Shown here: positions 3,698-17,942 of the stretch, in pieces
How positions within the stretch are numbered: the first letter of the stretch is position 1
Layout of the letters: every line of letters starts with the position of its first letter
Assembly: GCA_029862045.1 (NCBI GenBank)
Contig: JAOTYE010000002.1
Coordinates: 186,001-250,000, forward strand
Source of the DNA: Gammaproteobacteria bacterium
Lineage (GTDB): Bacteria > Pseudomonadota > Gammaproteobacteria > Steroidobacterales > Woeseiaceae
Direction of reading: 5' to 3'
DNA: 64,000 nt
Program-made: the position numbers and the translations under genes
The notes under the pieces: model-generated
Databases searched by the model: none
What the model saw: the letters and a program-made list of their open reading frames with translations, nothing else
Told to the model about the DNA's origin: nothing

Positions 3698-3776
3698 GTA
3701 TCGCGCTCCAGAATGTCGATCTTGAAAATGATGGGCGATGATACCATTGACTAATAAACATAAGCGGCAGACGACG

Positions 3777-4460
3777 ATGCTAACAGTTCATCACCTCGAA
3801 AACTCGCGCTCACAGCGTATCCTGTGGTTGCTCGAGGAGCTGGGTGCCGAATACGAAATCAAGCGATACGGACGCGACAAAGTGACCAGCCTCGCACCAC
3901 CCGAGCTAAGAGCTATTCATCCACTGGGCAAGTCGCCGGTTATAACGGATGGCAATATTACGGTTGCCGAGTCTGGCGCGATTATCGAGTACCTCGTCGC
4001 CAGGTTCGACACCGGCAAGCTATTGCCGTCACACGAAACGCCGGAGCACAGGGCATACGTCTACTGGCTGCATTACGCGGAGGGCACATTTGCACCATTG
4101 ATGCTCCTGTCCGTGGTCCTGGCCCGAATTGAAACCGCGCCAATGCCGTTTTTCCTGAAGCCCGTCGCCAAGGGCATTGCGGGCAAGGTGCGCGAGAGTT
4201 TTCTCGATGCCAACGTCAAACGCAATCTCGATTTCATGGAGTCGACGCTGCAGCACTCGACCTGGTTTTGTGGTGATCAGATGACAGCTGCCGATGTGCA
4301 GATGAGCTTTGCGATTGAGGCTGCTGAAGTACGCACAGACCTCGACGAAAACTACCCGAGGCTCGCCGCGTTTCTCGAACGCGTTCGTGCCAGGCCGGCC
4401 TACAAAAGGGCGCTCGACAGAGGCGGCCACTACGAGCTGATCGGGATTAATAACAAGTAA
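3777..4460 (+). CDS. Glutathione S-transferase family protein
   Basis: Translation from the ATG at 3777 gives 227 residues starting MLTVHHLENSRSQRILWLLEEL, the usual GST N-terminal thioredoxin-like domain, with Ser11 or Ser13 as the candidate thiol-activating residue. SPVITDGNITVAESGAIIEYL (about residues 56-76) holds the cis-Pro and the ESGAI glutathione-binding motif. The C-terminal half is all-helical with MTAADVQMSFAIE, the N-capping motif of GSTs. An upstream in-frame ATG would add 13 basic residues with no conserved character. It stands alone between a divergent SDR and the CoA-transferase cluster. The substrate is not defined. Confidence 0.86.
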   Translation: MLTVHHLENSRSQRILWLLEELGAEYEIKRYGRDKVTSLAPPELRAIHPLGKSPVITDGNITVAESGAIIEYLVARFDTGKLLPSHETPEHRAYVYWLHYAEGTFAPLMLLSVVLARIETAPMPFFLKPVAKGIAGKVRESFLDANVKRNLDFMESTLQHSTWFCGDQMTAADVQMSFAIEAAEVRTDLDENYPRLAAFLERVRARPAYKRALDRGGHYELIGINNK

Positions 4461-4522
4461 CTCAAAGTCCTACCGCGTTTTCCTCGTCATCTACTGACGT
4501 TCTGCAGTGGTTATAAGCCCTA

Positions 4523-4557
4523 TTGTTATATTGACAGGGCGAATAGTACAATATTCG
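4523..4557 (+). promoter_or_regulatory. Candidate promoter with overlapping inverted repeat before the CoA-transferase gene
   Basis: TTGTTA (4523-4528) and TACAAT (4547-4552) are separated by 18 bases and resemble sigma-70 -35 and -10 boxes about 45 bases before the ATG. The -10 box sits inside a perfect inverted repeat, CGAATA-N6-TATTCG (4540-4557), placed as a repressor operator would be. GTTATA occurs at 4510 and 4525, and GTTATAAC occurs before the receptor gene at 10557, so that short motif could be the shared site instead. The GntR/UTRA regulator in the cluster is the obvious candidate ligand sensor. Binding is inference only. Confidence 0.4.
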
Positions 4558-4598: not shown

Positions 4599-5801
4599 AT
4601 GAGTGATGCATCGGGACGCAAAGGCCCTCTGACCGATATTCGCCTTGTCGAGCTTGGCCAGTTGATCGCGGGTCCATTTTGCGGTCAGCTCATGGCGGAT
4701 ATGGGTGCGGACGTGATTAAAGTGGAGCCGCCCGGTCAGGGTGATCCGATGCGTACCTGGGGTCGCGGCGAATTTCCATTGTGGTGGCAGGTCTGTGCGC
4801 GAAACAAGCGAGTAGTGACTGCAAATTTGCGCGAAGAGCGCGGTCAGGAGCTCGTTCGCAGACTGATTGCCGAAGCGGACATGGTGCTGGAGAATTTTCG
4901 ACCCGGTACGTTGGAGCGTTGGGGACTCAGCTACGAGGACCTCGCCAAAGATAATCCTGGCCTCATTATGATTCGTGTATCGGGATACGGCCAGACCGGG
5001 CCGTACTCGAAGCGCGCCGGATATGCATCCATCGGTGAAGCAATGGGCGGCATGCGCTATCTGTGCGGCGAGCCGGACCGCCAACCGAGTCGCGCCGGCC
5101 TGTCGATCGGTGATTCTCTGGCAGCGACCTACGCTTGCATGGGGGCATTGGCGGCCTTGCATCACCGGGACAAAACGGGCGAAGGACAGGTTATTGACGC
5201 TTCGATTTTCGAGTCAGTGCTGAATGTCATGGAAGCGACCATTCCTGAGTACACAGTCAGCAATTATGTTCGTGAACGCTCCGGAGCAACTCTGCCTAAT
5301 GTTGCGCCATCGAATATTTACGACTGCAAAGACGGCATCTTTCTGGTTGCTGCAAATCAGGACACGGTATTTCGCCGCTTGTGCGCAGTAATAGGTCAAC
5401 CCGAGTTGGCCGAGGATGAACGCTACAAGACGCACACGGCGCGCGGCACGAACATGCAGGAGCTTGATGCGCTTATCACTGATTGGACGAAGACCAGGAC
5501 GGTTGCCGAAGTGGATCAGTTGATGCAGGAAGCTGGTGTACCGGCTGGCCGTATCTACCGTGCGCCGGAGATGCTCGAGGATCCGCAATTCCAGGCGCGT
5601 GAGGCGATTATCGAGACGCCCACCGACGAGTGGCCGGATCTCAAAATGCAAAACGTATTCCCGAAAATGTCCAGGACTCAAGGTGAGGTTCGCTGGACCG
5701 GTGTGATGACATTGGGCGCACATAACGAGGAAATCTTTTGCGGGCTGCTGGGGCTAAGCAGCGAAGAGCTCGCAGAACTACAGGAAAAGTCGATTATTTA
5801 G
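4599..5801 (+). CDS. CaiB/BaiF family (type III) CoA transferase
   Basis: The 400-residue protein matches the family length. It opens with VELGQLIAGPFCGQLMADMG and DVIKVEPPGQGDPMR, both hallmarks of type III CoA transferases, followed by LVLENFRPG-like VLENFRPG (97-103). The expected catalytic aspartate is Asp172 in GLSIGDSLAA, which forms the glutamyl/aspartyl-CoA-type intermediate in the family. The enzyme moves CoA from a donor thioester to a carboxylic acid. It is the first gene of the cluster, 10 bases before hyuA, so its acceptor acid is likely a substrate or product of the hydantoinase-type enzyme. Which acid cannot be told from sequence. Confidence 0.9.
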   Translation: MSDASGRKGPLTDIRLVELGQLIAGPFCGQLMADMGADVIKVEPPGQGDPMRTWGRGEFPLWWQVCARNKRVVTANLREERGQELVRRLIAEADMVLENFRPGTLERWGLSYEDLAKDNPGLIMIRVSGYGQTGPYSKRAGYASIGEAMGGMRYLCGEPDRQPSRAGLSIGDSLAATYACMGALAALHHRDKTGEGQVIDASIFESVLNVMEATIPEYTVSNYVRERSGATLPNVAPSNIYDCKDGIFLVAANQDTVFRRLCAVIGQPELAEDERYKTHTARGTNMQELDALITDWTKTRTVAEVDQLMQEAGVPAGRIYRAPEMLEDPQFQAREAIIETPTDEWPDLKMQNVFPKMSRTQGEVRWTGVMTLGAHNEEIFCGLLGLSSEELAELQEKSII

Positions 5802-5811
5802 GGGAACACAT

Positions 5812-7872
5812 ATGACGTTTCGGCTGGGAGTTGACGTTGGCGGTACGTTCACCGACCTGTTACTGGTCGATGAGGGCTCCGGCCACACTTACATGGCCAA
5901 GGTGTTGTCCACACCGGAAGATTCATCCATCGGTGTGTTGAACGGCATCGATCGCATTTGCGACGAGTCGGATATCGATGCGAAGCAGGTCAACCAGGTC
6001 ATGCACGGCACGACCGTCGCGACCAACGCGGTGTTGACACGCAAGGGCGCCAAGGTGGGTTTGATAACCACGAAAGGCTACCGGCAGGTGTTGCAGGTCG
6101 CTCGCTCATTCTGCCCGGGCGGCCTTGGCGGCTGGGTCAGCTACATGAAAGCGCCGCTACTGGCGCCGCTTGAATTGACGATTGAAGCCGATGAACGTAT
6201 GGATGCTGAGGGTAACGCCGTCAAACCGCTTGATGTTGATGCATTGCGTCGCGACGTCAAGGCGCTGGCCGGCACCGGTGAAGTTGAAGCCCTGACGATT
6301 TGCCTGTTGAACTCTTACGTCAACGGTGAGCACGAGGCGCAGACGCGGGAGGTCGCACAGGAGTACTTCGGCGACATTCCGATTTCGATCAGTAGTGATG
6401 TCGTGCCCGAGATGCAGGAATACGAGCGTACGGAAACGACAGTCGTGAATTCTTATGTGCGCCCACAAGTATCCAAGTACGTGCAAAACCTGCAGACATC
6501 GCTCGAAGAACGTCTGGGCGATGATGTCAATCTTGCGATATTGCGTTCGGACGGCGGCCTGGCATCTTCGCGTGCATCGAGTGAATCGCCCGTGAACATG
6601 CTGTTGTCAGGTCCGGCCGGTGGCGTTTCGGGCGCGATGTACTTCTGCACGCGTGGGGGCTTCGAGAATATCCTGACGTTCGATATGGGCGGAACGTCGA
6701 CCGACGTTGCCCTTATACAGAACGGCCAGGCACGCATTCGTCGAGAGACACGCGTCAGTGATATTACGGTGCGTGCGCCATCCGTTGACGTACGTACGAT
6801 CGGCGCCGGTGGCGGTTCAATCGCTTTTAGTCCAGAACTCACGAAAGCTCTGCGCGTCGGCCCGGATTCCGCAGGCGCAGACCCTGGTCCCGCTGCCTAT
6901 ATGAAAGGCGGTGACAAACCGACCGTCTGCGACGCGAACGTGCTGCTCGGCTATCTGCCGTCCGATGTAAAACTCGGCGGTGCCATGACAATTAATCGCG
7001 ATGCCGCCGAAACTGCGGTACAGACGGTTGCCGATGCGATGGGTATCGAATTGATGGCTGCCGCAGAGGGCATCATCAAAATCGTGAATGAGTCGATGCT
7101 TGGGGCTTTGCGACTTGTATCGGTTGAGCAGGGCTATGATCCGCGGGACTTTGCGCTTGTAGGTTTTGGTGGTGCAGGCCCGTTGCATGCAAACGCGCTT
7201 GGAATTCTCAGTGGTTCGTGGCCGGTCATCATACCGCCAGGCCCAGGGGTGCTTTGTGCCTATGGTGATGCAACAACACGGATTCAGGACGAGGCGTCGC
7301 AAACGTATGTGGCACGTGTGGATGGACTCACGACTAAGGATTTCATTCGACAGCTCGATACGCTGCGCGCGCGGGCAAGCGAATCGTTCGAAGCGGATGG
7401 TATTCCGTCCGATCAGCAAGAAGTCAGCTACCAGGCAGATATTCGGTACGGCGGTCAGGCCTTCCAGCTGTCACTCGCTGTCACGACTGACGAATTGAAA
7501 AGTCAGGGCCTCGCAGTACTAACGGATGAGTTCGATCGTCAGCACGAGCAACTGTTTACGTTCGCACACGGCAAGGATCATGAAATCGTCATGATTCGAG
7601 CGATTGTGAAAGCAAAGAGCACTCTCGCGGCTGACCTAAAAGAAGTCAGCGACGTCAAGACCAGGCTCGAGGACGCGAAATTTCACGACACCAGGTTCTA
7701 TTACGAACAAGAGTGGCACGAGGCTGTTATCTACGATCGCGGCAAGCTCGGTATCGGAACGGTTGTCCCCGGACCGGCAATCGTTGTTGAGATGGATTCG
7801 ACGACTTTGGTTCTGCCCGGACATGCCGCCGCTGTCGACGAAGTTGGCAACCTTCTGATTAATCCGGTTTAA
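5812..7872 (+). CDS. Hydantoinase/oxoprolinase family protein, subunit A (HyuA-like)
   Basis: Residues 1-20 (MTFRLGVDVGGTFTDLLLVD) form the ASKHA-type phosphate-binding loop of the HyuA family, followed by VMHGTTVATNAVL. The middle has LSGPAGGVSGA and ILTFDMGGTSTDVALI, the second phosphate site. IGAGGGSIAF and GPDSAGADPGPA are also family signatures. At 686 residues it is full length. The family includes ATP-dependent N-methylhydantoinase, 5-oxoprolinase and the carboxylating acetophenone/acetone carboxylases, so the reaction could be ring hydrolysis or ATP-driven carboxylation. It pairs with the B subunit 14 bases downstream. The N-carbamoylsarcosine amidase-like gene in the cluster favours hydrolysis of a ureide. 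Confidence 0.92.
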   Translation: MTFRLGVDVGGTFTDLLLVDEGSGHTYMAKVLSTPEDSSIGVLNGIDRICDESDIDAKQVNQVMHGTTVATNAVLTRKGAKVGLITTKGYRQVLQVARSFCPGGLGGWVSYMKAPLLAPLELTIEADERMDAEGNAVKPLDVDALRRDVKALAGTGEVEALTICLLNSYVNGEHEAQTREVAQEYFGDIPISISSDVVPEMQEYERTETTVVNSYVRPQVSKYVQNLQTSLEERLGDDVNLAILRSDGGLASSRASSESPVNMLLSGPAGGVSGAMYFCTRGGFENILTFDMGGTSTDVALIQNGQARIRRETRVSDITVRAPSVDVRTIGAGGGSIAFSPELTKALRVGPDSAGADPGPAAYMKGGDKPTVCDANVLLGYLPSDVKLGGAMTINRDAAETAVQTVADAMGIELMAAAEGIIKIVNESMLGALRLVSVEQGYDPRDFALVGFGGAGPLHANALGILSGSWPVIIPPGPGVLCAYGDATTRIQDEASQTYVARVDGLTTKDFIRQLDTLRARASESFEADGIPSDQQEVSYQADIRYGGQAFQLSLAVTTDELKSQGLAVLTDEFDRQHEQLFTFAHGKDHEIVMIRAIVKAKSTLAADLKEVSDVKTRLEDAKFHDTRFYYEQEWHEAVIYDRGKLGIGTVVPGPAIVVEMDSTTLVLPGHAAAVDEVGNLLINPV

Positions 7873-7886
7873 GTGAGGAGTTCGTC

Positions 7887-9740
7887 ATGACAGCAAATAT
7901 CATTGAAACAAACTCCACGCCGTTTAAGACTGTTGACGTTGACACAGTAACGGTAGACATCATCGAAAACGCGCTCAAAAACGTGCGCGTCGAAATGGAT
8001 GCGGTGCTATTTCGTACGGCAATGAGTCCCGGCATTCGCGAGCAAGGCGACTGCTTCCCGATGGTCGCGAATCGCGACGGCAAGATGGTCGTTGGTCAGT
8101 TCGGTTCTTTCATTCGCGGCTTCATGGATGCCTACGAGGGTGATATCGAAGAGGGCGACATCATTCTGACGAACGATCCGTACATGTGTAATGCGGCAGT
8201 GTCGCACTTGCCGGACTGGATCGTGCTCGTGCCAATTTTCAAAGATGGCCGTCATATGGCGTGGTCCGCGATGTTCGGTCACATGTCCGATAACGGCGGC
8301 ATGGTGCCCGGATCAATTCCGATCAGTGCGGAAACGATCTACCAGGAAGGTATTCGCATTCCGCCGACCAAACTCTACAAGAAAGGCGAGTTGCAGGCCG
8401 ATCTGCTCGAACTAATCTTGCACAACGTGCGGACCTCCGAGTGGAACCGTTTTGACTTGAACGCGCTGGTCGCGGCATGCCGTACGGCTGGCAAACGCTG
8501 CGTCGAGATCGCCGAGCGTTTCGGCGACGATACGTTTTACACGACCATGCAGATCATGCTTGATCGAAACCTCGAGGCGATGCGCGCCATCATCAACATG
8601 ATCGTTCCCGAAGAGCCGCAGTACTTCGAGGATTACGTCTGCGACGACGGTGTCGGCAAAGGACCGTACAAGATCGCGTGCAAGCTTTGGCGTGAAGGGG
8701 ATGTTGCGATCTTCGATTTCGCGGGTACTGATCCGCAGGCCAAGAGTTCGATCAATTTCTATCTCAGTGAAGATATGTTCAAGATGTTCTTCGGGTCGTT
8801 CACGATCAATCTGTTCGATCCGCATATTCTCTTTAATGATGGCTTCTACGAGCTCGTCGATGTGCGCATCCCGGAAGGCAGCCTTTTGAAGCCGAACTTT
8901 CCGGCGGCACTTTCCGGCCGGACTCACGCATTGGGGCGGATATTCGACGTCATGGGTGGCGTGTTGGGCCAAGGGGCGCCGGACGCAATGAATGCGGCAG
9001 GCTTTTCTGACAGCCCGCACTTGTTCTTCTCCGGTTACGACAAGAAGGGCGAGTGGTTCCAGTTGTTCCAAATCGGATTTGGCGGTATTCCTGGCCGGCC
9101 GGTCGGCGACGGTCCGGACGGACACTCGCTGTGGCCGGGGTTTACCAATGTACCGAACGAATTTATCGAAGCTTACTTTCCACTGCGCATCGTCAAGTAC
9201 GAGCCTATCGCCGATTCAGGAGGCGCTGGGTTACACAGAGGCGGTAATGGCCTTTCGGTGGCCTATGAGTTCCTCGTTGACGGGCAGATCGGCATTCATG
9301 ACGAACGCTGGTTGACCTATCCATGGGGCGTGCGCGGTGGCGACCCGGGCATGCGTTCGACGAAGAAACTGGTACGTGCAGACGGGAATGAAGAGTGGCT
9401 GCCGGCCAAGTGCGACGGGGTCGACGTTAAGGAGGGCGATGTCCTGTACTTCAATACCTGGGGAGGCGGTGGCTGGGGAGATCCACTGGAACGTGATCCG
9501 GAGCTCGTGCAGGTCGACGTCGCCCGTGGTCTCGTGTCTCGTGACGGTGCGCAACGTTATGGCGTTGTCATCGATGACAACGGTAGTGTCAATACAGCGG
9601 CGACCGAGAGATTGCGCGACAAGATGCGCGGTGATCGCGGTGAGACAGGCTTATTCAGTTTTGGTGGCACGATCGATGAGATCAAGGCACGTTCACTGGA
9701 AGAGACGCACCTCCCGGCGCCGGAGGCACCGAATGCCTGA
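7887..9740 (+). CDS. Hydantoinase B/oxoprolinase family protein (HyuB-like)
   Basis: The 617-residue protein has the usual HyuB layout. It begins with VDIIENALKNVRVEMDAVLFRTAMSPGIRE (split here as ENALKNVRVEMD and FRTAMSPGIRE), then a glycine-rich metal-site region, LTNDPYMCNAAVSHLPDW and GHMSDNGGMVPGSIP. The end has GGAGLHRGGNGLSVAYEF and TWGGGGWGDPLERDP, typical of the family C-terminus. It is expected to form the catalytic complex with HyuA, which supplies ATP-dependent activation. A good ribosome site (GTGAGGAG) precedes the ATG. Its last codons overlap the start of the GntR gene by 8 bases, indicating one transcript. The substrate is unknown. Confidence 0.92.
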   Translation: MTANIIETNSTPFKTVDVDTVTVDIIENALKNVRVEMDAVLFRTAMSPGIREQGDCFPMVANRDGKMVVGQFGSFIRGFMDAYEGDIEEGDIILTNDPYMCNAAVSHLPDWIVLVPIFKDGRHMAWSAMFGHMSDNGGMVPGSIPISAETIYQEGIRIPPTKLYKKGELQADLLELILHNVRTSEWNRFDLNALVAACRTAGKRCVEIAERFGDDTFYTTMQIMLDRNLEAMRAIINMIVPEEPQYFEDYVCDDGVGKGPYKIACKLWREGDVAIFDFAGTDPQAKSSINFYLSEDMFKMFFGSFTINLFDPHILFNDGFYELVDVRIPEGSLLKPNFPAALSGRTHALGRIFDVMGGVLGQGAPDAMNAAGFSDSPHLFFSGYDKKGEWFQLFQIGFGGIPGRPVGDGPDGHSLWPGFTNVPNEFIEAYFPLRIVKYEPIADSGGAGLHRGGNGLSVAYEFLVDGQIGIHDERWLTYPWGVRGGDPGMRSTKKLVRADGNEEWLPAKCDGVDVKEGDVLYFNTWGGGGWGDPLERDPELVQVDVARGLVSRDGAQRYGVVIDDNGSVNTAATERLRDKMRGDRGETGLFSFGGTIDEIKARSLEETHLPAPEAPNA

Positions 9741-10506
9741 GCTGTTGCATTCGCTAAAGTCGGATTGGCAACTGGCGCAGCATGGCGCCATGTTGCGGGT
9801 TCCGCTCTATCACCAGTTGTACTCGGTGCTCAAGGCCGCGATCCTCGACGGCACGATACCGCATGACGCGCAAATGCCGACTGAGCAACAACTTACGGAG
9901 ACGTTTGACGTGTCGCGAATCACGGCGAAGCGTGCGATGGATGAGCTTGCTGCAGAGAAATTGATCTCAAGGTTTCGCGGCAAGGGGTCTCATGTTACAT
10001 ACCACTACACACCCAAACCGGTGCGTGGACCGCTCGTCGGCATGCTCGAGAGCCTTATCGACATGGGAGAGCACAGCATCGTCCGTGTCCTATCAATCGA
10101 GAAAGTCGTGCCGCCCGTCGATATTCGTGAGCGGCTAAATCTGTCCGAAGGTGACTACGTGCACAAGGTCATTCGTGTAAGCAGTAACGAGGAGGGCGAG
10201 CCCTACGCTTACTACGTTAGCTGGACGGTCGGTATTTCCAGGGCGTACACGAAGCGCAAGCTGGAAAGTACGCCGCGTCTGAATCTGCTTCGCGAAAACG
10301 ACATCAGTCTGACCAAGATGGAGCAGGTACTCAGTGCGAAGAACGCATCTGGTCGGATTGCGGCGGAACTCGATGTTGAGCCGGGTGCTGCATTGTTGTC
10401 GGTTCGTCGCTTTAGTTCCACAGAGAGTGGCGTAATCGTTGACGTACTTGAAGCGCTGTACAACCCGGAGCGGTATCAGTTCGCCATGGTAATGGGCATC
10501 GACTAA
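9733..10506 (+). CDS. GntR-family regulator with UTRA ligand domain (HutC type)
   Basis: The protein is 257 residues from the ATG at 9733. An N-terminal winged helix-turn-helix (residues about 20-90: VPLYHQLYSVLKAAILDGTI, TEQQLTETFDVSRITAKRAM, FRGKGSHV) matches GntR. The C-terminal UTRA domain (about 100-255) contains YVHKVIRVSSNEEGEPYAYY and ends DVLEALYNPERYQF, the usual effector-binding fold. HutC-type members usually repress the operon they sit in and release DNA on binding a pathway intermediate. It overlaps the hyuB stop, so it is co-transcribed and could be autoregulated. Likely sites are the repeats before the CoA transferase and the receptor genes. Confidence 0.93.
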   Translation: MPELLHSLKSDWQLAQHGAMLRVPLYHQLYSVLKAAILDGTIPHDAQMPTEQQLTETFDVSRITAKRAMDELAAEKLISRFRGKGSHVTYHYTPKPVRGPLVGMLESLIDMGEHSIVRVLSIEKVVPPVDIRERLNLSEGDYVHKVIRVSSNEEGEPYAYYVSWTVGISRAYTKRKLESTPRLNLLRENDISLTKMEQVLSAKNASGRIAAELDVEPGAALLSVRRFSSTESGVIVDVLEALYNPERYQFAMVMGID

Positions 10507-10529
10507 CGGCGGCAAGAAGCTGTTCAATC

Positions 10530-10564
10530 TTGCCAGTTTGGATGAAAAGAACTAAAGTTATAAC
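10530..10564 (+). promoter_or_regulatory. Candidate promoter and operator before the TonB-dependent receptor
   Basis: TTGCCA (10530-10535), a 17-base spacer and TAAAGT (10553-10558) form a reasonable sigma-70-like promoter. A perfect 8-base palindrome, GTTATAAC (10557-10564), overlaps its -10 end. The same GTTATA core occurs twice before the first gene of the cluster. This supports a second, regulated transcript starting at the receptor gene, probably controlled by the GntR/UTRA protein encoded just upstream. The 95-base gap itself also hints at a promoter. No binding evidence is available. Confidence 0.4.
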
Positions 10565-10601
10565 AAAGAAGCAAAGCACTGCTTAGGAAGGGGGTAATGC
10601 T

Positions 10602-13130
10602 ATGAGAATAGCAACGAGAACGATTGTATTAATCAGCGTGTTATCGATGTTGCCGTTGGCGACGGCAAACGCCCAGCAAGGCGGCGTGTTGGCGATTGAC
10701 GAAGTCGTCGTTACAGCACGTAAGCGCGCAGAGAGTCTGCAGGACGTACCTATTGCGATAACCGCATTCACGGCACAGACGATTGAGCGAGCCGGCATCG
10801 AACGACCGGCCGACTTCATATCGCTGATGCCTAATGTCACGATCGTGGATACAGCAAACGTCGGCGATACACAGGTCAGTATTCGTGGCATCGTTTCAAC
10901 ACGTGACGCGGAGTCGACGTTCGCCTACCTGGTTGACGGCATCCTCAGCACGAACCCGAACAGCTTCAACGAAGAACTCGTTGATGTGCAGCAAATCGAA
11001 GTGCTGAAAGGACCGCAAGGTGCCCTGTACGGCCGCAATGCGGTAGCAGGCGCCATCCTGGTTACGACCAAAGAGCCCGGTGACGAATTCGCCGGCCAGA
11101 TTAAAGTGGGTGGCGGCAGCGACGGCATGGCAAAGGCCTCGCTGCGCTTTAGTGGCCCGCTTGGTGACTCGGTACGAGGCAGCCTGGCTGCCAGCTATCG
11201 CGAATTTGATGGTGTTTATTCCAATATCTACGAGAACGCCGGATCAGACGTTGACTATCTCGAGGACACGACGGTACGCGGGCGCCTGATCATTGAACCG
11301 AATGACAGGCTCACCTGGGACTTACGTGCCGGTTTCTCCGACGTCGAGGGCGGTGCGATCAATTTTAATGCCGTGTTTGCGATACCTGCTTTCGTCGACG
11401 TCTTCGGTTTCGATCAGTCGTACTTCGCAGACGTAAACGAGCACGATTTCACGTTCGCCTTCAACGTTCCCGGCGAGAACAAGCAGGAAACGACTGAGTT
11501 TGCCGTCAAGGGGGATTACGAAACTGACAATGGTGACTGGACCTTTATTGCCTCGTTCAATGATCTCGAGGAGTACCTGTTGTCCGACGGCACGAGCGCG
11601 ACGTTTTATGGTTATGAAGTGACTGCGGCATGCCAGGCCGATCGGGCGACGTTGAATAGTTTCACACGGCCGGATCTGTTCGGTGAGCCTTTCCAGCCGT
11701 TTGGTGTACTGCCCCCGCCTGATGATTTTTTGGGTGTTTATGGACCCTACACGCCAACGGCCTGTGATGGTTACCAGTACCAGGAGCGCAATCAGAAGGA
11801 TTCCAGCGTCGAGATACGCTTCACGTCTCCGCAGGATCAGTCGACCCGCTGGATTGCCGGCATCTATGCGACGGAAATTGATCGCGAGGTCGTCGTCGCG
11901 TACGGCGCCGATCAGGGTCTCGGCTTTCTGCGGCAGCCGTATATCGACCCCACAGGACCCAACCCGACCGATCTGCTGTTCTGGGACGATTTCGATACCA
12001 GCGTGATTGCGGCATTTGGCGAGGTGAGTTTCGATATCGGCGAGAGCAGTGAACTATCACTGGCATTGCGCTGGGACCAGGAGGATCGCAAGGTTCGCAA
12101 CAAGGTGCCGAACGTTGCGGCTTCAGGTCTGAATATCCACACACTCGATCCGATGACGTTTCAGCCAGGCCCGATTAACCCCGGATTTTTGACAAACCCC
12201 AGCGGCATTCCCGATCGTAAAGAGACGTTCGACCAGGTCCAGCCAAAAGTGTCGTGGCGTTGGGCTGCAAGTGATGCGGTCAATGTGTATGCGAGCTGGG
12301 GTATCGGCTTTCGTAGCGGTGGCTTCAACTCGCTCGGCAGCTCTGACCTGCTCGAGCTCTGGTTCAACACCGGCCAGCCGCCGGTGCTAGCCAATCCGAT
12401 TAATGCGCAGCTGGTCATCGAAGATACCTATGACAAGGAAGTCTCGAGCAGTTTCGAGCTGGGAGTCAAAACCCAGTTGTTGGATAATCGCTTGCGACTG
12501 AATGCCGCGGTGTTTAGCACTGACGTCGACGACAACCAGTTTTTCGAGTTCTTCGCTGGTCCTTTTGGCCTCTTGCGCGTCGTCACGACGATTGACGAGA
12601 CCACTATTCAGGGGTTTGAGGTCGACTTTAACTGGCTCGCGTCGGAAAACTTCTCGATCTTCGGTGGTGTCGGTTTCCTGGATTCCGAAATCGAGAAGAA
12701 CATCAATCGGCCGCTGTCGGAAGGTAACGATGTACCACAGGCGCCAGATGAGACCTACAACCTTGGGGCCCAGTTGGAACTCCCAATGGGCAACGACATG
12801 AATATCTATGCGCGAGTGGATTTTCAGCACGTCGGCGAAATGTGGTTCCACACGCTGCAGGGCGAGGCAACGCCGAACATCTGGGACGGCTTGTTCGCCG
12901 GCGGTGGATCCATCACGACGGATTTCTCGAAAACACAGCGTGACGCCTACGACACAGTGAATCTCCGCATTGGCTTTGAAGCAGAGCGTTGGTCTGCCAC
13001 GGTATGGGGCCGTAATATTACGGACGAAGAATATCTGGAAGAAGTGATTCCGGCTGCTGAGTTCGGCGGATCATTCATACACCCAGCCGCGACGGCTACG
13101 TATGGTGCCGACTTTAGTTTCCGCTTCTAA
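10602..13130 (+). CDS. TonB-dependent outer-membrane receptor
   Basis: The 842-residue protein starts with a signal peptide (to about residue 24, ATANAQ). A TonB-box-like IDEVVVTARKR follows, and then the plug domain with VSIRGI, YLVDGI and the motif VLKGPQGALYGRNAVAGAI. The rest is the beta-barrel and ends in Phe (DFSFRF), as outer-membrane barrels do. The group resembles the large family of receptors with TARKR after the signal peptide that import diverse organic compounds, not only siderophores. It lies between the regulator and the amidase gene, so it probably imports the compound degraded by this cluster. An AGGAAGGGGG ribosome site precedes the ATG. Confidence 0.93.
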   Translation: MRIATRTIVLISVLSMLPLATANAQQGGVLAIDEVVVTARKRAESLQDVPIAITAFTAQTIERAGIERPADFISLMPNVTIVDTANVGDTQVSIRGIVSTRDAESTFAYLVDGILSTNPNSFNEELVDVQQIEVLKGPQGALYGRNAVAGAILVTTKEPGDEFAGQIKVGGGSDGMAKASLRFSGPLGDSVRGSLAASYREFDGVYSNIYENAGSDVDYLEDTTVRGRLIIEPNDRLTWDLRAGFSDVEGGAINFNAVFAIPAFVDVFGFDQSYFADVNEHDFTFAFNVPGENKQETTEFAVKGDYETDNGDWTFIASFNDLEEYLLSDGTSATFYGYEVTAACQADRATLNSFTRPDLFGEPFQPFGVLPPPDDFLGVYGPYTPTACDGYQYQERNQKDSSVEIRFTSPQDQSTRWIAGIYATEIDREVVVAYGADQGLGFLRQPYIDPTGPNPTDLLFWDDFDTSVIAAFGEVSFDIGESSELSLALRWDQEDRKVRNKVPNVAASGLNIHTLDPMTFQPGPINPGFLTNPSGIPDRKETFDQVQPKVSWRWAASDAVNVYASWGIGFRSGGFNSLGSSDLLELWFNTGQPPVLANPINAQLVIEDTYDKEVSSSFELGVKTQLLDNRLRLNAAVFSTDVDDNQFFEFFAGPFGLLRVVTTIDETTIQGFEVDFNWLASENFSIFGGVGFLDSEIEKNINRPLSEGNDVPQAPDETYNLGAQLELPMGNDMNIYARVDFQHVGEMWFHTLQGEATPNIWDGLFAGGGSITTDFSKTQRDAYDTVNLRIGFEAERWSATVWGRNITDEEYLEEVIPAAEFGGSFIHPAATATYGADFSFRF

Positions 13131-13138
13131 TCCAGTGG

Positions 13139-13756
13139 ATGACTGACGAGCTTACAGAGAATTATCGCGGGGCTTTTGACGGCAGCCTTGGCTTCGGCGA
13201 AGCGCCCGCGCTAATTCTCGTTGACTTTGTCGCGGCATACTTCGACAAAGACAGTCCTTTGTACGCCGGTGTGGAGGACGCGTTGTCGTCCGCACTGCGT
13301 ATCCGTGATGCAGCCCGAAGTGCCGGTATTCCGGTCATCTACACAAATGTCGTGTATCAGAAGGGCGGCGGGGACGGTGGTGTTTTTTACCGTAAAGTTC
13401 CTGCGCTTGAGGTTTTTGTATCAGGCAACCCTCTGGGTGGATGGCCCGAGGGCCTCGAGCCTGCGGACGGGGAGTTGGTGATTTCCAAGCAGTATCCCAG
13501 TGCGTTTTTTGGCACTTCGCTGGCGGCGACCTTAGAGGCGAAAGGCATTGATACGCTGATAATCACAGGCCTGACGACGAGCGGTTGTGTTCGAGCGACC
13601 TGTGTCGACGCGATGTCATACGGTTTCATACCGATTGTGGTGGCGGATGCATGCGGTGACCGTCACGCGGCACCGCACGAGGCGAACCTGTTCGACATGA
13701 ACGCAAAATACGCTGATGTTGTGGACGAGCACACTGTCATCGAGCATGTTAAGTGA
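13139..13756 (+). CDS. Isochorismatase-family amidohydrolase (N-carbamoylsarcosine amidase-like)
   Basis: The fold is the cysteine-hydrolase (isochorismatase) family of 205 residues. The triad is visible as Asp29 (ALILVDFVAAYF), Lys117 (VISKQYPSAFFGT) and Cys150 (GLTTSGCVRAT). LVDFVAAYFDKDSPLYAG resembles N-carbamoylsarcosine amidohydrolase more than nicotinamidase or isochorismatase. That enzyme splits an N-carbamoyl amino acid into the amine, CO2 and ammonia, the step that follows hydantoinase. Its position 8 bases after the receptor gene in a cluster with HyuA/HyuB supports a carbamoylase role here. The true substrate is not known. Confidence 0.85.
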   Translation: MTDELTENYRGAFDGSLGFGEAPALILVDFVAAYFDKDSPLYAGVEDALSSALRIRDAARSAGIPVIYTNVVYQKGGGDGGVFYRKVPALEVFVSGNPLGGWPEGLEPADGELVISKQYPSAFFGTSLAATLEAKGIDTLIITGLTTSGCVRATCVDAMSYGFIPIVVADACGDRHAAPHEANLFDMNAKYADVVDEHTVIEHVK

Positions 13757-14670
13757 GCAGCAAGAAGATCACATTGGTCGAAGTGGGCCCGCGCGACGGG
13801 CTGCAAAGCGAGCCCGAAATCCTGCCAACGGACAGTAAAGTGGAGTTCATCAACAAGGCGATCGACGCGGGTATTCGGCGCCTGGAGGTTGCGAGCTTTG
13901 TGCATCCGAAGCGCGTGCCACAGATGGCCGATGCCGAAGCGTTGATTGAACGACTGGCCGATCATGACGATGTGTCATACGTCGGATTGATCATGAATGA
14001 GCGCGGTCTTGATCGCGCGCTCGAGACAAAGATCGATGAAATCGGCATGGTTGTCCTCTCTACCGATACCTACAACCGCAAGAACCAGGGCGTAGACATT
14101 GATGAGTCCGTTCGCGTCTGGGGTGAGATCGCAAAGCGCGCGCAGCAAAACGGCTTGCGTGCCAATGTCATGATCTCGTCCGCGTTCGGCTGTCCGTACG
14201 AGGGTGAGGTCAAGGTTGAGCGTATTGTCGAACTCGCCAGGCGGGTCGTTGACGCTAGTCCGGCGGAGCTTGGCATTGCGGACAGCATTGGCGTCGCAGT
14301 TCCGAACCAGGTCACCGAATTGCTCGGACGAGTCCGCGAAGTGATCGGTGATTTGCCGCTGCGATGTCACTTCCACAACACGCGCAACACCGGGCTTGCC
14401 AATGCTCAGGCCGCCGTAGAGTCCGGCGTCACGTATCTCGATGCGAGTATCGGCGGAATCGGCGGTTGCCCTTTTGCACCGGCGGCGACTGGCAACATTC
14501 CCACCGATGACTTGCTTTACATGCTCGACCGATCCGGTGTTGAGACCGGTGTGTCACTCGACAAAATCATCGATATCAGCCGCTGGCTCGAACAGGAACT
14601 CGGGCGCGGCGTGCCTGCCTTGCTGCCCAAGGCCGGCATCTTTCCATCAGGTGATCGCGAGACCGCCTAA
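13753..14670 (+). CDS. Hydroxymethylglutaryl-CoA lyase family protein
   Basis: The GTG start at 13753 overlaps the upstream stop (GTGA), which suggests translational coupling. The 305-residue protein has VGPRDGLQ (residues 11-18; Arg14, Asp15), CHFHNTRNTGLANA (His206, His208) and ASIGGIGGCPFAPAATGN with Cys239. These are the metal-binding and catalytic positions of HMG-CoA lyase. Relatives cleave 3-hydroxy-3-methylglutaryl-CoA or similar acyl-CoAs such as citramalyl-CoA by retro-Claisen chemistry. The type III CoA transferase in the cluster could provide the thioester. The exact acyl-CoA is undetermined; leucine catabolism is possible, but no other leucine-pathway genes are near. Confidence 0.9.
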   Translation: MSSKKITLVEVGPRDGLQSEPEILPTDSKVEFINKAIDAGIRRLEVASFVHPKRVPQMADAEALIERLADHDDVSYVGLIMNERGLDRALETKIDEIGMVVLSTDTYNRKNQGVDIDESVRVWGEIAKRAQQNGLRANVMISSAFGCPYEGEVKVERIVELARRVVDASPAELGIADSIGVAVPNQVTELLGRVREVIGDLPLRCHFHNTRNTGLANAQAAVESGVTYLDASIGGIGGCPFAPAATGNIPTDDLLYMLDRSGVETGVSLDKIIDISRWLEQELGRGVPALLPKAGIFPSGDRETA

Positions 14671-14697
14671 AGGCGGACGGTTGGCGAGAGAGCATTC

Positions 14698-15117
14698 ATG
14701 CCGCCGACACGCATTCATCATGTCAATTTTGTCGTCCACGATCTTGAAGAGGCAATGGCGCGATTCGAACGCGCGCTTGGAGTCGAGCCGTTTGAAATCA
14801 TTGATTACCGGCCACGTGGCGCCCGTGTCGCGCGGACACGCGTCGGTGAAAGCTGGTTGGTGCTCGTTTGTCCTTATGATCCGGCGTCTGTGCCAGGCCG
14901 ACATCTCGCGGAGCACGGCGAAGGATTTTTCCTTATATCATTGGGTTACGAGCATATTGGGCAGCAACTCGAGCAGCTCGAGGCCAGCGGCATCGAAGTA
15001 GTCGACCAGGCACCGCGTGACGGTATTCTCGACTGGCGCGTTGCCGACATAGGTGAGTTACACAGTGCGAAAATTCAGTTGACGCAGGACAATCCTGTAG
15101 ACGACGAACAGGACTAG
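14698..15117 (+). CDS. VOC-superfamily protein (methylmalonyl-CoA epimerase/glyoxalase-like)
   Basis: The 139-residue protein begins RIHHVNFVVHDLEEAMARFER, the opening beta-alpha-beta unit of vicinal-oxygen-chelate proteins with a candidate metal-binding His. A second unit starts near HIGQQLEQLEASGIEVVDQ. The pattern is closest to methylmalonyl-CoA epimerases, which invert an acyl-CoA stereocentre using two glutamates or a bound metal. As the last gene of the cluster after the HMG-CoA lyase homologue, an epimerase or isomerase acting on the acyl-CoA intermediate is plausible. The substrate is unknown, and other VOC functions such as a dioxygenase cannot be ruled out. Confidence 0.8.
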   Translation: MPPTRIHHVNFVVHDLEEAMARFERALGVEPFEIIDYRPRGARVARTRVGESWLVLVCPYDPASVPGRHLAEHGEGFFLISLGYEHIGQQLEQLEASGIEVVDQAPRDGILDWRVADIGELHSAKIQLTQDNPVDDEQD

Positions 15118-15187: not shown

Positions 15188-15739
15188 ATGATGGTTCGGG
15201 AACGCAAAACACTGGTCTTGTTCCGGTCCGCTTACCTGAAATTTATGGTGTCAACGTGGAAGCTGTTGACCTTCGCGGTTGCTGCTCTGTCGATGATCGC
15301 CATGGCGCCCTACACCGGTGATCCAACCTGGGATTACGTCGATGCATCGTTCATGTCGATACTCACGTTCCTGACCGCGCCCTGGGCGGTCGGTACTCTT
15401 TATCTGGCGCTGAAGGGGCGGGCCAGATTGATTCACGTCTTCATTGCTGTTTGCGTCTGGATGTTTTCTGTCAGTTGGGCCTACGACGTCTACATTCTCC
15501 TCAAGCACGGTTACTATCCGCCGACCTGGTTGCCGAATATCGTGCTTTCCTCGATTCTGTACTTCGCAGCAGGACTGATGTGGAATCTGCAGCGCAAAGA
15601 AGGCAGGGGCGTTGTATTCGGATTCATGGAGCCGGACTGGCCTAATCCCGCCTATGAACTCGGTTTCCGGCAGATCATCTGGTTCGCGCTGCCGATCATG
15701 ATTCTCGTTACATTCATGATTGTTCCGTTTCTGTTATGA
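15188..15739 (+). CDS. Unrecognised multi-pass inner-membrane protein
   Basis: The protein of 183 residues from the first ATG has about four hydrophobic segments (near residues 25-45, 58-75, 84-105 and 115-135) plus one at the C-terminus (165-183). WDYVDASFMSILTFLTAPW and EPDWPNPAYELGFRQIIW are the most distinctive stretches. The reading frame stays open and hydrophobic upstream (LTGYTLACVVAAI) back to about 15122 without an ATG, GTG or TTG. A start there would need an ATT or CTG codon but would complete a further membrane helix. The next gene overlaps its stop by 4 bases. I do not recognise the family. Confidence 0.7.
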   Translation: MMVRERKTLVLFRSAYLKFMVSTWKLLTFAVAALSMIAMAPYTGDPTWDYVDASFMSILTFLTAPWAVGTLYLALKGRARLIHVFIAVCVWMFSVSWAYDVYILLKHGYYPPTWLPNIVLSSILYFAAGLMWNLQRKEGRGVVFGFMEPDWPNPAYELGFRQIIWFALPIMILVTFMIVPFLL

Positions 15740-16257
15740 ATGCGAAGAAGAAACGCAGCGTCGGTTGCCTGCTCGCGCTGGCGATTTACATACCAGTGAT
15801 CATCATCATGTACTTCATTACGGTGCCTGATGAAGTGACGAAGGACTTTACCGGCAAGAACGCCAGGGTATTTTCAATAGCAATTGTGCATGAGGGCGAC
15901 AATGGCAACGAATACAGCCGTACTACCCTGGAAGTGATTGGGGATGCCGATCCGGATCGACCGACGCCGCAGTTTCTGCTTCCCGAGCCGAAAGTTGTAA
16001 TGTCTGCGCACAACACTTACCGGGTGAATGTCCTGGAGGACCATGGCGACTGGCAACTTATTGAGTTCAACTATTCGAATACGTACACGTCCAGGTCTGT
16101 CTACAGAGCCTATGCCGATCGGGTCGAACCTGTGTCATTCCAGCTGACGTCACACGTAGGCCAGGCCATGATGGCGCTGATGCTCATCATTCCCGTGTAC
16201 TTCATAGCCTGGCTGATTACGTTTATCAGAAACCGCCGCGCGAACAAAGTCGCCTAG
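15736..16257 (+). CDS. Unrecognised membrane protein with extracytoplasmic middle domain
   Basis: The start overlaps the previous stop (ATGA), so the two are translated together. The 173 residues show one N-terminal helix (about 9-28, after MNAKKKRS), a hydrophilic domain of about 110 residues, and one C-terminal helix (about 143-163) followed by RNRRANKVA. The positive-inside rule puts both termini in the cytoplasm and the middle domain outside. That domain includes VFSIAIVHEGDNGNEYSRTT and ends DRVEPVSFQLTSHVG. No family is recognised. Together with the preceding gene it may form a small two-protein membrane complex. Confidence 0.72.
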   Translation: MNAKKKRSVGCLLALAIYIPVIIIMYFITVPDEVTKDFTGKNARVFSIAIVHEGDNGNEYSRTTLEVIGDADPDRPTPQFLLPEPKVVMSAHNTYRVNVLEDHGDWQLIEFNYSNTYTSRSVYRAYADRVEPVSFQLTSHVGQAMMALMLIIPVYFIAWLITFIRNRRANKVA

Positions 16258-16779: not shown

Positions 16780-17865
16780 TCAGGTCGCGACGTGGATGGG
16801 GCGCCGGCGTGCGCCCCAGGTACCGGCTTGCGCCTCGAAAACACCGGCAACTTCTGTGCCGCAGCTTGCACACGCGGCTTCCGGGCCGTCGATTTTGAGA
16901 TTCCAGGTCGAGAGCTCGTACCAGTCACGGCCGATCAGGACCTCGCCGCAGTTACTGCAGTAGGTGCTTCCGCCGGCGTAGTCGTGAACGTTGCCCGTGT
17001 AGACGTGATGCATACCGTTGCTGATCGCAATCTCGCGTGATTTCGTTAATGTCTCGATCGGTGTGCTCGGTGTATCCAGCATCTTCCAGTCGGGGTGGAA
17101 GGCCGTAAAATGCAATGGCACGTCGGGGCCGAGATGCCCGACGATCCACCGCGTCATGGCATCGATCTCGGCTGGGGAGTCGTTCTCGCCCGGTATCAGC
17201 AGGGTCGTCAGCTCGAACCAGATATCCGTATCGTTCTTCAGATAAACAAGTGTGTCGAGCACGGGCTCGAGGTGGCCGCCGCAGACCTTCCAGTAGAAGC
17301 GGTCGGTGAAGGCCTTGAGATCGACGTTTGCACCATCGATATGCTCGAAAAACTCACCGCATGCAGCCGCAGTGATATAGCCGGCTGTGACCGCGACGTT
17401 CTTGATGTTGCGGTCGTGGCAGGCTTTCGCGACATCAACGGCGTACTCGAGAAAGATCACCGGGTCGTTATAGGTGTAGGCGACGCTGCGGCTGCCCGTC
17501 TCGACAGCGGCCTGGGCAATTGCCTCCGGCGAGGCGCTGTCCTGCAACCGGTCGAATTCGCGCGATTTCGAGATATCCCAGTTTTGACAGAACTTGCAGG
17601 CGAGGTTGCAGCCCGCCGTACCGAATGACAACACGGGTGTGCCCGGCAGGAAATGATTGAGCGGCTTCTTCTCGATGGGATCGACGCAAAAACCGGATGA
17701 GCGGCCGTAGGTCGTCAGGACGATCTCGTCACCGGCGCGACCGCGCACGAAGCACAGACCGCGTTGTCCATCGCGAAGCTTGCAGAAACGCGGACAGACG
17801 TCGCACTGCAGCCGCCCATCATCGAGGCGCTGCCAGTATTTCGTGCTGTGGCCTTGTAGTGTCAT
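16780..17865 (-). CDS. amrS: AmmeMemoRadiSam system radical SAM enzyme
   Basis: The protein of 361 residues is typical of AmrS. The N-terminus has a Cys set, CDVCPRFC (21-28) and Cys38 in RGLCFVRG. The radical SAM motif is GCNLACKFC with Cys86, Cys90 and Cys93. The C-terminus has CSNCG and CASCG knuckles for an additional metal or cluster. The family shares ancestry with pyruvate formate-lyase activases and always travels with MEMO1-like and often AMMECR1-like proteins; its reaction is unknown. Here it is divergent from the MEMO1-like gene across 77 bases. The AMMECR1-like partner is not in the window. Confidence 0.93.
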   Translation of the reverse strand: MTLQGHSTKYWQRLDDGRLQCDVCPRFCKLRDGQRGLCFVRGRAGDEIVLTTYGRSSGFCVDPIEKKPLNHFLPGTPVLSFGTAGCNLACKFCQNWDISKSREFDRLQDSASPEAIAQAAVETGSRSVAYTYNDPVIFLEYAVDVAKACHDRNIKNVAVTAGYITAAACGEFFEHIDGANVDLKAFTDRFYWKVCGGHLEPVLDTLVYLKNDTDIWFELTTLLIPGENDSPAEIDAMTRWIVGHLGPDVPLHFTAFHPDWKMLDTPSTPIETLTKSREIAISNGMHHVYTGNVHDYAGGSTYCSNCGEVLIGRDWYELSTWNLKIDGPEAACASCGTEVAGVFEAQAGTWGARRRPIHVAT

Positions 17866-17942
17866 TCGTCACCGTACACCTACTTATATAAACCTTGGTT
17901 CAGAGGACTACAATTACAATATGTAGGAGGGGGCACGGTGCC

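Follow-up and report, generated by a model that had tools for sequence, protein, structure and literature searches.

Here, we describe an eight-gene cluster in a 64,000-nucleotide stretch of Woeseiaceae DNA (the window) that is, on balance, probably an operon for the breakdown of the cyclic imide, or a related cyclic amide, of a substituted C4 dicarboxylic acid, for example an alkylmaleimide or alkylsuccinimide. The enzyme families are all known; their combination would make up a pathway that we did not find in the open-access literature, in agreement with the initial annotation, which knew of no described pathway with this exact gene set.

All eight genes were found on the + strand at 4599-15117, where the initial annotation had placed eight same-strand genes with small gaps (10, 14, -8, 95, 8, -4 and 27 nt in gene order). 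They encode a family III (CaiB/BaiF) CoA transferase (4599-5801, 400 aa; PF02515, 2.2e-126), HyuA and HyuB, the alpha and beta subunits of a predicted ATP-dependent cyclic-amide hydrolase (5812-7872, 686 aa; PF05378, PF01968, PF19278, and 7887-9740, 617 aa; PF02538, 1.3e-144), a GntR-family regulator with a UTRA effector domain (9733-10506; PF00392, 2.8e-15; PF07702, 1.1e-20), a TonB-dependent outer-membrane receptor (10602-13130, 842 aa; PF00593, 3e-33; PF07715, 1.1e-18), an isochorismatase-fold cysteine amidohydrolase (13139-13756, 205 aa; PF00857, 4e-35), an HMG-CoA-lyase-like lyase (13753-14670, 305 aa, GTG start; PF00682, 2.6e-44) and a VOC-fold protein (14698-15117, 139 aa; PF13669, 1.1e-14). 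The GntR gene, with its ATG at 9733, starts before the HyuB stop and overlaps HyuB by 8 nt (the profile search took the sequence from 9736), and the amidase and lyase genes overlap by 4 nt. Motif reading finds the expected catalytic residues, whose roles we in part presume, in the cluster enzymes; with the families, they support the earlier assignment of ring opening, amide or carbamoyl hydrolysis, CoA activation and C-C cleavage as predicted functions. Upstream, CTATTGTTATATTGAYARG (4520-4538, + strand, 61-79 nt 5' of the CoA-transferase start) occurs with 0 mismatches, against a chance expectation of 0.01 at up to 3 mismatches. It is exact in 5 of 25 related loci scanned (L028, L035, L037, L039, L122) and has 1-2 mismatches in 4 (L021, L023, L026, L029), each time upstream of CaiB, and is absent or at 4 mismatches only in 16, upstream DNA being missing for some; it is a candidate operator or promoter element.

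HyuA has the three ATP motifs of its family (DVGGTFTD at residue 8, DMGGTSTD at 291, GADPGP at 355), HyuB has an Asp-His-Asp-His metal tetrad (D55/H107/D110/H132, assigned by motif and not from a structure) of the kind given for HyuAB-type hydrolases in excerpts of PMC8453981, and the two genes stand in hydAB order. Solved relatives are N-methylhydantoinase 7hk5 (1.2e-132 for HyuA, 7.4e-72 for HyuB) and 6yra (5.5e-117; 6yra_B, 1.6e-54). We propose that HyuAB is an ATP-dependent cyclic-amide hydrolase of the hydantoinase/oxoprolinase/lactamase family. Assignment as the caprolactamase CapAB was rejected, with NCBIfam scores of 530.8 (alpha) and 195.2 bits below the cut-off of 1000 each. Carboxylation, which had been offered as the alternative to ring opening, is disfavoured because there are two hyu genes without a third subunit. 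An ATP-dependent carboxylase of acetone/acetophenone type, in a cluster that degrades a ketone, would share the superfamily and account for NCBIfam matches to acetophenone carboxylase subunits, but is highly improbable: according to excerpts of PMC5214803, carboxylase clusters have a third subunit gene and hydrolases two genes only, and the cluster has no gamma subunit gene; scores are far below carboxylase cut-offs (286.7 of 1500 bits), and the amidase would be superfluous.

The amidase carries a D29/K117/C150 triad and a TTSGCVRA motif. Its top three solved relatives are N-carbamoylsarcosine amidohydrolase 26st (6.8e-47), 3ot4/3uao (1.5e-40; record title 'putative isochorismatase'), which we take to be the Bordetella maleamate amidohydrolase NicF, and 1nba (1e-34). 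Triad and nearest structures place it in the N-carbamoylsarcosine / maleamate amidohydrolase group, the carbamoylsarcosine-type 26st scoring ahead of the maleamate-type 3ot4, and we propose that it is a half-amide hydrolase. For the type-B amidase of locus L063, 26st is best, 4l07 second and 3ot4 lower. With 26st nearest to the amidases of both cluster types and 7hk5 nearest to HyuA and HyuB, a ureide could be envisaged: HyuAB would open a hydantoin and so yield an N-carbamoyl acid, from which the isochorismatase-fold enzyme would strip the carbamoyl moiety before the acid passes into a CoA branch of its own. This is quite unlikely, as a hydantoin yields an amino acid, yet the cluster shows no recognisable ammonia-lyase or aminotransferase; the amidase is also near the presumed maleamate amidohydrolase, and LeuCD, RipC-like and PrpB-like dicarboxylate enzymes recur in relatives.

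The CaiB-type transferase (presumed catalytic Asp172) has as solved relatives the CaiB/BaiF protein 4ed9 (8.2e-79), 10uh (7.5e-67) and succinate-hydroxymethylglutarate CoA-transferase 9br6 (2.2e-58). It falls below every listed NCBIfam cut-off, and its 293.6 bits with the succinate-glutarate CoA-transferase model are likewise too low; two CaiB lineages, about 28% alike, occur among cluster loci. Its proposed role is to load CoA onto a substituted C4 dicarboxylate, and the lyase would then cleave a substituted malyl-CoA. The lyase falls in the HMG-CoA lyase subfamily both by score (NCBIfam PRK05692, 305.3 bits, cut-off 246; solved relative 1ydo, 2.3e-70) and by residues R14/D15/H206/H208/C239/N248, presumably catalytic, all six >95% conserved in 82 rows. 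That it is simply the HMG-CoA lyase of leucine degradation, the case set beforehand against a dedicated pathway, did not materialise: family and catalytic residues are the same, but clade and neighbours differ. In the tree, the cluster lyases split into at least two lineages (20 rows at 100/100 support, 24 rows at 97/94), and presumed leucine-operon lyases form a separate clade (8 rows, 100/99), a label based on gene sizes that we take to be those of the leucine operon. Genomes G373, G121 and G394 carry a second lyase of this kind, within such a gene run, besides the cluster copy. No leucine-operon genes were found among the window cluster and neighbour proteins scanned. The window genome has a single such lyase gene (E 1e-10), so the enzyme may also serve leucine degradation there.

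The AlphaFold2 model of the VOC protein (pLDDT 90.8) retrieved the hypothetical protein 3oa4 at rank 1 of a PDB fold search (TM 0.80) and agreed in overall fold with methylmalonyl-CoA epimerases among ranks 2-20 (query-normalised TM 0.73-0.78). It was rejected as a methylmalonyl-CoA epimerase, with an equivalog score of 40.4 of 114.95 and an alignment that keeps only the first His of what we take to be the metal-ligand set. The protein apparently has a methylmalonyl-CoA-epimerase-like fold without that enzyme's metal ligands.

The same gene set, which the initial annotation had suggested seeking in other genomes, was found in gammaproteobacteria and other families of the phylum, and this recurrence supports its claim that the genes are one functional unit. 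Among 73 distinct related loci of at least 15 kb, the HMGL was recognised in 65, CaiB in 65, the amidase in 58 and all three in 53; 15 lack a recognised amidase, 8 a lyase and 8 a CoA transferase, some perhaps at stretch ends. Control loci of other HyuAB paralogues (25) had 0 CoA transferases, 0 lyases and 2 amidases (partner genes recognised at E 1e-12), and the cluster is therefore not a chance array. Fisher values (lyase 1e-16, CaiB 1e-16, amidase 2e-10) are overstated because the genomes lack independence, and the counting profiles were built from cluster loci, where matches arise partly by construction. In an even sample of the phylum, the 14 loci other than the window carried HMGL in 12, amidase in 12, CaiB in 10 and LeuC in 7. 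Across 107 family genomes (HyuB E 1e-100, lyase 1e-85, amidase 1e-60), the lyase was present in 22/31 with HyuB and 2/76 without, and the amidase in 25/31 and 3/76, respectively; this co-occurrence holds also when the cluster halves are split between contigs (G072, G047) or separated by about 40 kb (G062). In the named loci among the matches listed (the best 80 of 230), HyuB is at least 77% identical and is carried by Woeseiaceae, Glaciecola, Alteromonas and other Alteromonadaceae, Halieaceae, SAR86, Porticoccaceae and Arenicella. As the cluster is spread over many marine lineages, its substrate is likely common in the sea or its sediments, and the hypothesis is testable, as the carriers include several named strains (Alteromonas sediminis U0105, Paraglaciecola polaris LMG 21857, Aestuariibacter salexigens DSM 15300, Seongchinamella unica GH4-78).

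Partner enzymes in relatives bear on the substrate. LeuC, of a LeuCD-type hydratase, adjoins 14/73 cluster loci and is not much commoner there than in control paralogue loci (2/25), both LeuC-bearing controls belonging to a parallel HyuAB system; it was gained beside the cluster repeatedly, as well-supported tree branches require at least 6 label changes. The window cluster contains no hydratase, and a single LeuC scoring above the family cut-off lies elsewhere in the window genome. PrpR-like regulators were found by profile in 26/73 loci, some of which are no more than 35-38% alike and may be generic sigma-54 activators, and an AllB-type cyclic amidohydrolase in 3/73. In genome G070, the genes after HyuAB and amidase encode a lyase like RipC, a protein like mesaconyl-CoA hydratase, an acyl-CoA dehydrogenase and two more CaiB. 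This itaconate-like set adds to the window-type enzymes, for a 75% CaiB comes after it and a 70% HMGL starts about 9.5 kb after HyuB. The parallel HyuAB subfamily (30 genomes found, 20 loci compared) has a PrpB (methylisocitrate)/dimethylmalate-lyase-family gene in 20/20 loci, LeuC in 19, amidase in 17 and a flavocytochrome-c/tricarballylate-dehydrogenase-like gene in 15, with HMGL in 0/20 and no CaiB in 19/20. Most of the scores behind the partner family names fall short of NCBIfam cut-offs (RipC 224.7 of 375, PrpB 288.1 of 354.4, TcuA 147.5 of 369); parallel locus L205 has a LeuD/DmdB-family gene over its cut-off (158.8, cut-off 108.95) and a lyase whose relatives include 2,3-dimethylmalate lyase 3fa3 (4.5e-53).

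Since HyuAB and amidase are joined in relatives by LeuCD, an itaconate-type set and a methylisocitrate/dimethylmalate-lyase-family enzyme, the imide of a substituted C4 diacid is preferred to a ureide, which modifies the ureide or cyclic amide first suggested. By analogy with the 2-oxoindoleacetyl-CoA lactamase of indoleacetate degradation, CaiB, the first gene, might instead load CoA before HyuAB hydrolyses the CoA-borne lactam and the amidase cuts a side amide. This order is improbable, since it leaves the amidase of 58/73 loci unexplained and the parallel system keeps its amidase while nearly always dispensing with CaiB. Equally doubtful is a six-membered imide (glutaconimide, 2,6-dihydroxypyridine type) degraded through 3-hydroxy-3-methylglutarate and HMG-CoA to acetyl-CoA and acetoacetate: a lyase over the HMG-CoA lyase subfamily cut-off and a CaiB like succinate-hydroxymethylglutarate CoA-transferase would suit it, but LeuCD-type enzymes are known for maleate-type acids, not for glutaconates, and the RipC-like and PrpB-like partners come from families handling malate-type skeletons.

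For the favoured C4-diacid imide, substrates and reactions are those suggested by the observed families, catalytic residues, conservation and co-occurrence, and by the pairing of HyuAB and amidase with other dicarboxylate enzymes. The TonB-dependent receptor is proposed to take up the substrate, HyuAB would activate a ring carbonyl with ATP and open the ring to a half-amide, and the isochorismatase-fold enzyme would release dicarboxylate and ammonia. A LeuCD-type hydratase, adjoining the cluster in some relatives, could convert an alkylmaleate to an alkylmalate; in the window genome, its single LeuCD elsewhere, presumably of leucine synthesis, or another enzyme may do so. The CaiB-type transferase would form the CoA thioester and the lyase would cleave it to pyruvate (or another 2-oxoacid) and acyl-CoA, with the VOC protein in an isomerase, epimerase or lactonase step and GntR regulating the operon. 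The C-C cleavage foreseen earlier is thus retained, and strictly acetyl-CoA plus a ketoacid appears less likely than these products.

A more specific suggestion, tentative and rather unlikely, concerns chlorophyll and heme: the operon would be a bacterial route, so far missing, by which their last fragments (hematinic acid and methyl-ethyl or methyl-vinyl maleimide) are degraded. Hematinic acid would be turned by HyuAB and amidase into methyl(2-carboxyethyl)maleate, one carbon longer than its homologue 2-methyl-cis-aconitate, and hydration, CoA loading and lyase cleavage would give pyruvate and glutaryl-CoA. The PrpR-like regulators, the LeuCD recruits, the PrpB-like lyase of the parallel system and the likeness of CaiB to succinate-glutarate CoA-transferase would thereby be explained together; no tetrapyrrole-breakdown genes were recognised among about 60 neighbour proteins scanned. 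If a tetrapyrrole maleimide is the substrate, a gap in the fate of chlorophyll and heme would be filled, with many marine bacteria recycling tetrapyrrole nitrogen and carbon; if another imide is, the cluster would still represent an undescribed form of nitrogen-ring catabolism, solved in two parallel ways, with CoA and without it.

Nicotinate fermentation ends with dimethylmaleate hydratase DmdAB and then 2,3-dimethylmalate lyase. The proposed pathway would share this logic, in which a substituted maleate is hydrated and cleaved by a lyase, but the window version would be CoA-dependent and would begin with the ATP-driven opening of a nitrogen ring. The amidase has the D-K-C triad in common with NicF (3ot4/3uao) and N-carbamoylsarcosine amidohydrolase (26st, 1nba), a likeness by sequence, and its context is CoA-thioester chemistry where theirs is nicotinate or creatinine breakdown. 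ATP-dependent caprolactamase and N-methylhydantoinase likewise have two subunits, ATP motifs and the metal tetrad (excerpts of PMC8453981), and window HyuAB differs by its linkage to CoA-dependent C-C cleavage. Finally, the itaconate/methylsuccinate cluster (ich, mcd, PA0880, mmgE, ict, ccl; PA0878-PA0883), as outlined in excerpts of PMC12290011 and PMC9875883, uses a CoA transferase and a C-C lyase to reach pyruvate and acetyl-CoA and includes PA0880, a 2-hydroxyparaconate lactonase gene named as a glyoxalase family protein. Itaconate degradation (ict-ich-ccl) was rejected for the window cluster, where the MaoC-type hydratase and CitE-type lyase are absent (similar genes occur in relative L119); its lyase is of the HMGL type, and HyuAB, amidase and TonB receptor are added.

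The eight genes at 4599-15117 lie on the forward strand with a largest gap of 95 nt and two overlaps, and were assigned by Pfam and NCBIfam to a family III CoA transferase (CaiB), HyuA, HyuB, a GntR/UTRA regulator, a TonB-dependent receptor, an isochorismatase-fold hydrolase (amidase), an HMG-CoA-lyase-like enzyme (HMGL) and a VOC protein, in agreement with the initial annotation, which had placed the same set on one strand. Only the lyase among the eight proteins passes an NCBIfam cut-off (HMG-CoA lyase subfamily). Expected residues are present in HyuA (ATP motifs), HyuB (metal tetrad), the amidase (triad D29/K117/C150), the CoA transferase (Asp172) and the lyase (R14/D15/H206/H208/C239/N248). 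Solved relatives of the window amidase are headed by N-carbamoylsarcosine amidohydrolase, followed by a Bordetella enzyme (3ot4/3uao) that we take to be maleamate amidohydrolase, and the relatives of CaiB include succinate-hydroxymethylglutarate CoA-transferase. No inner-membrane transporter gene is found in the window cluster; at one related locus (L061) an MFS transporter adjoins HyuB. A glutathione-transferase gene (3738-4460) was rejected as an operon member because most loci of the window's gene order (type A) have no such gene directly before CaiB. Directly 3' of the VOC gene, two membrane-like proteins are encoded on the same strand (15188-16257), and neither matches a Pfam or NCBIfam family at E 0.001. 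Elsewhere in the window are a Radical-SAM-like and a MEMO-like gene in divergent orientation (16780-18734), presumably an AmrS/MEMO pair, a protein apparently of the DUF692 family (48795-49664), a family tied elsewhere to peptide natural products, and a large protein (60103-62592) with, by eye, HEAT-like repeats and a Ser/Thr-kinase-like domain.

A HyuB scan of named genomes yielded 230 relatives, with 77-95% identity in the best 80 of the 230. One hundred HyuB loci (these 80 and 20 fetched besides) were looked at, and locus counts use the 73 that are left after omission of 1 duplicate and 26 loci shorter than 15 kb. Two architectures are seen, so that the gene set recurs in the comparison of gene order that the initial annotation had proposed: type A has the window order and is found mostly in Woeseiaceae, and type B (Alteromonadaceae, Halieaceae and others) typically reads CaiB-HMGL-HyuA-HyuB-amidase, with VOC, TonB and PrpR-like or GntR regulator genes around it, and shares about 28% (CaiB) and about 37% (HMGL) identity with type A. 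Further genomes of the phylum carry window-like enzymes in other gene orders. HyuB was detected in 14 of 398 genomes sampled across the phylum, the window genome among them (E 1e-150); of the 107 genomes in the window's family, 31 have it at E 1e-100. Of the 14 non-window loci from the even phylum sample, 12 hold HMGL, 12 the amidase, 10 CaiB and 7 LeuC. Within the family, the window-type lyase occurs in 22 of the 31 genomes with this HyuB vs 2 of the 76 without, and the amidase in 25/31 vs 3/76, kinship of the genomes inflating the significance of co-occurrence counts here and in the locus comparison. Some genomes keep both halves of the cluster although these lie apart, for instance on separate contigs in G072 and G047 and at a distance of about 40 kb in G062. 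Woeseiaceae-type loci L035, L037, L040 and L122/L192 keep CaiB-HyuA-HyuB-GntR, then have weakly DsbD-like and cupin genes and, further on, a unit of HMGL, CaiB and LeuD (LeuC was seen in L192); GntR is directly followed by an allantoinase-like cyclic amidohydrolase in the first three, and by a 480-aa gene without an assigned family in L122/L192.

All 25 listed loci of other HyuB paralogues (from 14 of 23 genomes searched; two loci shorter than 15 kb) served as control. HMGL and CaiB each occur in 65 of the 73 cluster loci (all at least 15 kb) and in none of the 25 control loci with the same profiles, and although these profiles were built from cluster loci and are biased in their favor, both contrasts are likely far above what such bias would give. 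The amidase (58/73 vs 2/25) and TonB receptor (54/73 vs 5/25) were counted likewise; the contrast for LeuC alone (14/73 vs 2/25) is slight. PrpR-like regulators were found by profile in 26 of the 73 loci, with the PrpR_N domain confirmed in both representatives scanned. A 19-bp element 5' of the CoA transferase gene (4520-4538) is a candidate operator, its consensus being exact in the window (chance expectation 0.01) and in 5 of 25 related loci scanned, with 1-2 mismatches in 4 more of the 25. The gap between the GntR and TonB genes has no palindrome common to the window and its relatives; loci L028, L033 and L041 have palindromes there that resemble one another. The VOC protein, by structure prediction and a fold search, has a methylmalonyl-CoA-epimerase-like fold, but was rejected as that epimerase since it falls short of the cut-off and, by our reading of the alignment, lacks the metal ligands; a possible parallel would be PA0880, given as the lactonase gene of the Pseudomonas itaconate cluster in passages of two papers (PMC9875883, PMC12290011).

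On balance, the operon probably serves the catabolism of a cyclic imide of a substituted C4 dicarboxylic acid. Opening of the imide by HyuAB would give a half-amide, the substrate type of 3ot4/3uao if that enzyme is a maleamate amidohydrolase. Substituted maleates tend to re-close to the ring, and this would explain why ATP is spent. Esters of the 3-hydroxyacyl-CoA type are what HMGL-type enzymes cleave, and cleavage by the lyase would release pyruvate or another 2-oxoacid together with an acyl-CoA. A proposal for HyuAB-type hydrolases, in a passage of PMC8453981, has ATP activating a lactam in the alpha subunit and hydrolysis at the beta-subunit metal site. Carboxylation by HyuAB, offered initially as an alternative to ring opening, was rejected on gene organization and scores: carboxylases of this superfamily are described, in a passage of PMC5214803, as carrying a third subunit gene, which is missing from the window cluster. 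The best solved relatives of the ring opener and the amidase would suit a ureide as well, although we judge a ureide pathway unlikely; the acid skeleton of the favored imide is suggested by LeuC/LeuD genes near the cores, by an itaconate-like gene set in one relative (G070) and by the partners of a second HyuAB subfamily.

The 14 loci with LeuC/LeuD-type hydratase genes near the core include one genome outside the class (L115), and six genomes with a cluster copy (G373, G121, G394, G299, G503 and G498) encode another above-cut-off LeuC at a different site. In the LeuC tree, where "cluster" means HyuB in the same fetched stretch, at least 6 label changes are needed on well-supported branches (a value as low came up in 29 of 500 label shuffles), perhaps an overcount because a few rows without the label (L191, L192) are from loci close to such clusters. 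Cluster LeuC of three named Alteromonadaceae and three other genomes form one group (100/100) with the non-cluster LeuC that the latter three also have, which makes the cluster copies look like recruits from leucine synthesis. A hydratase gene is absent from the window cluster, so the window organism would rely on the genome's LeuC enzyme or a different hydratase, or would start from a substrate that already carries a hydroxyl group; its one LeuC over the family cut-off adjoins LeuD and an HMGL-superfamily gene (24% identity) that is presumably LeuA. Leucine degradation, named initially as a function that would explain the lyase otherwise, was rejected as the main role: the tree separates cluster lyases from presumed leucine-operon copies (labelled by gene-run sizes), and three genomes hold both kinds. 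The window lineage pairs weakly (85/67) with the presumed leucine clade, a third lineage occurs in some loci, and the window genome has one HMGL only, which could therefore do double duty there. Chloroflexus (R)-citramalyl-CoA lyase was set aside as close kin, since the literature passages do not place it.

The two amidase-bearing control loci also carry LeuCD and are of another HyuAB subfamily; its gene run further holds an enzyme of the PrpB/dimethylmalate-lyase family and a flavoprotein that is flavocytochrome-c/tricarballylate-dehydrogenase-like. Most scores behind partner-enzyme names (RipC-, PrpB-, flavoprotein-like) are below NCBIfam cut-offs. In 20 of the 30 genomes with a match among 149 (L221-L240; seed G439 left out), the PrpB-like gene was counted in 20/20 loci, LeuC in 19/20, amidase in 17/20, flavoprotein in 15/20 and CaiB in 1/20, which are lower bounds because gene calling misses some genes (HyuB was recognized in 18/20, though all were fetched for it); HMGL was found by profile in 0/20, with the same misses. 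This subfamily would follow the logic of the proposed imide pathway without CoA: ring opened, ammonia freed, hydration and cleavage. With L205 and L208, these loci form a separate, well-conserved cluster within one family of the phylum (GntR, LeuCD, HyuB-HyuA, isochorismatase-fold amidase, PrpB-like lyase and flavoprotein), for which no paper was found in the open-access literature. Some of them apparently also contain genes of the size expected for a TRAP transporter and a short gene resembling 4-oxalocrotonate tautomerase.

A tetrapyrrole-derived substrate of the hematinic acid type is attractive but doubtful. The product from hematinic acid would be homologous to 2-methyl-cis-aconitate, in keeping with the PrpR-like regulators, LeuCD and PrpB-like lyase. 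Passages of PMC7318184 state that hematinic acid arises by oxidation of chlorophyll a, cite earlier work that found it, and maleimides, in lake sediments and in leaves undergoing senescence, and report leaf samples in which hematinic acid was found and maleimides were not detected. No gene specific to tetrapyrrole breakdown was seen among about 60 neighbor proteins scanned.

The enzyme families of the cluster are known and their combination is new. Neither the gene set nor a maleimide-degrading bacterium was found in the open-access papers searched, which bears out the initial annotation's remark that no pathway with this exact gene set is described. In G070 (locus L119), HyuAB and the amidase are followed by a RipC/citramalyl-CoA-lyase-like enzyme and a mesaconyl-CoA-hydratase-like MaoC protein, with an acyl-CoA dehydrogenase and two CoA transferases in the same run. 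HyuAB of this locus is divergent (HyuB 57%), and the run also holds an amidase-signature enzyme and an AAT-fold protein. A CaiB (75%) and an HMGL (70%) lie further on, so the itaconate-like set is an addition and not a replacement. The G070 set resembles itaconate and methylsuccinate degradation, of which a known cluster is described in a passage of PMC12290011.
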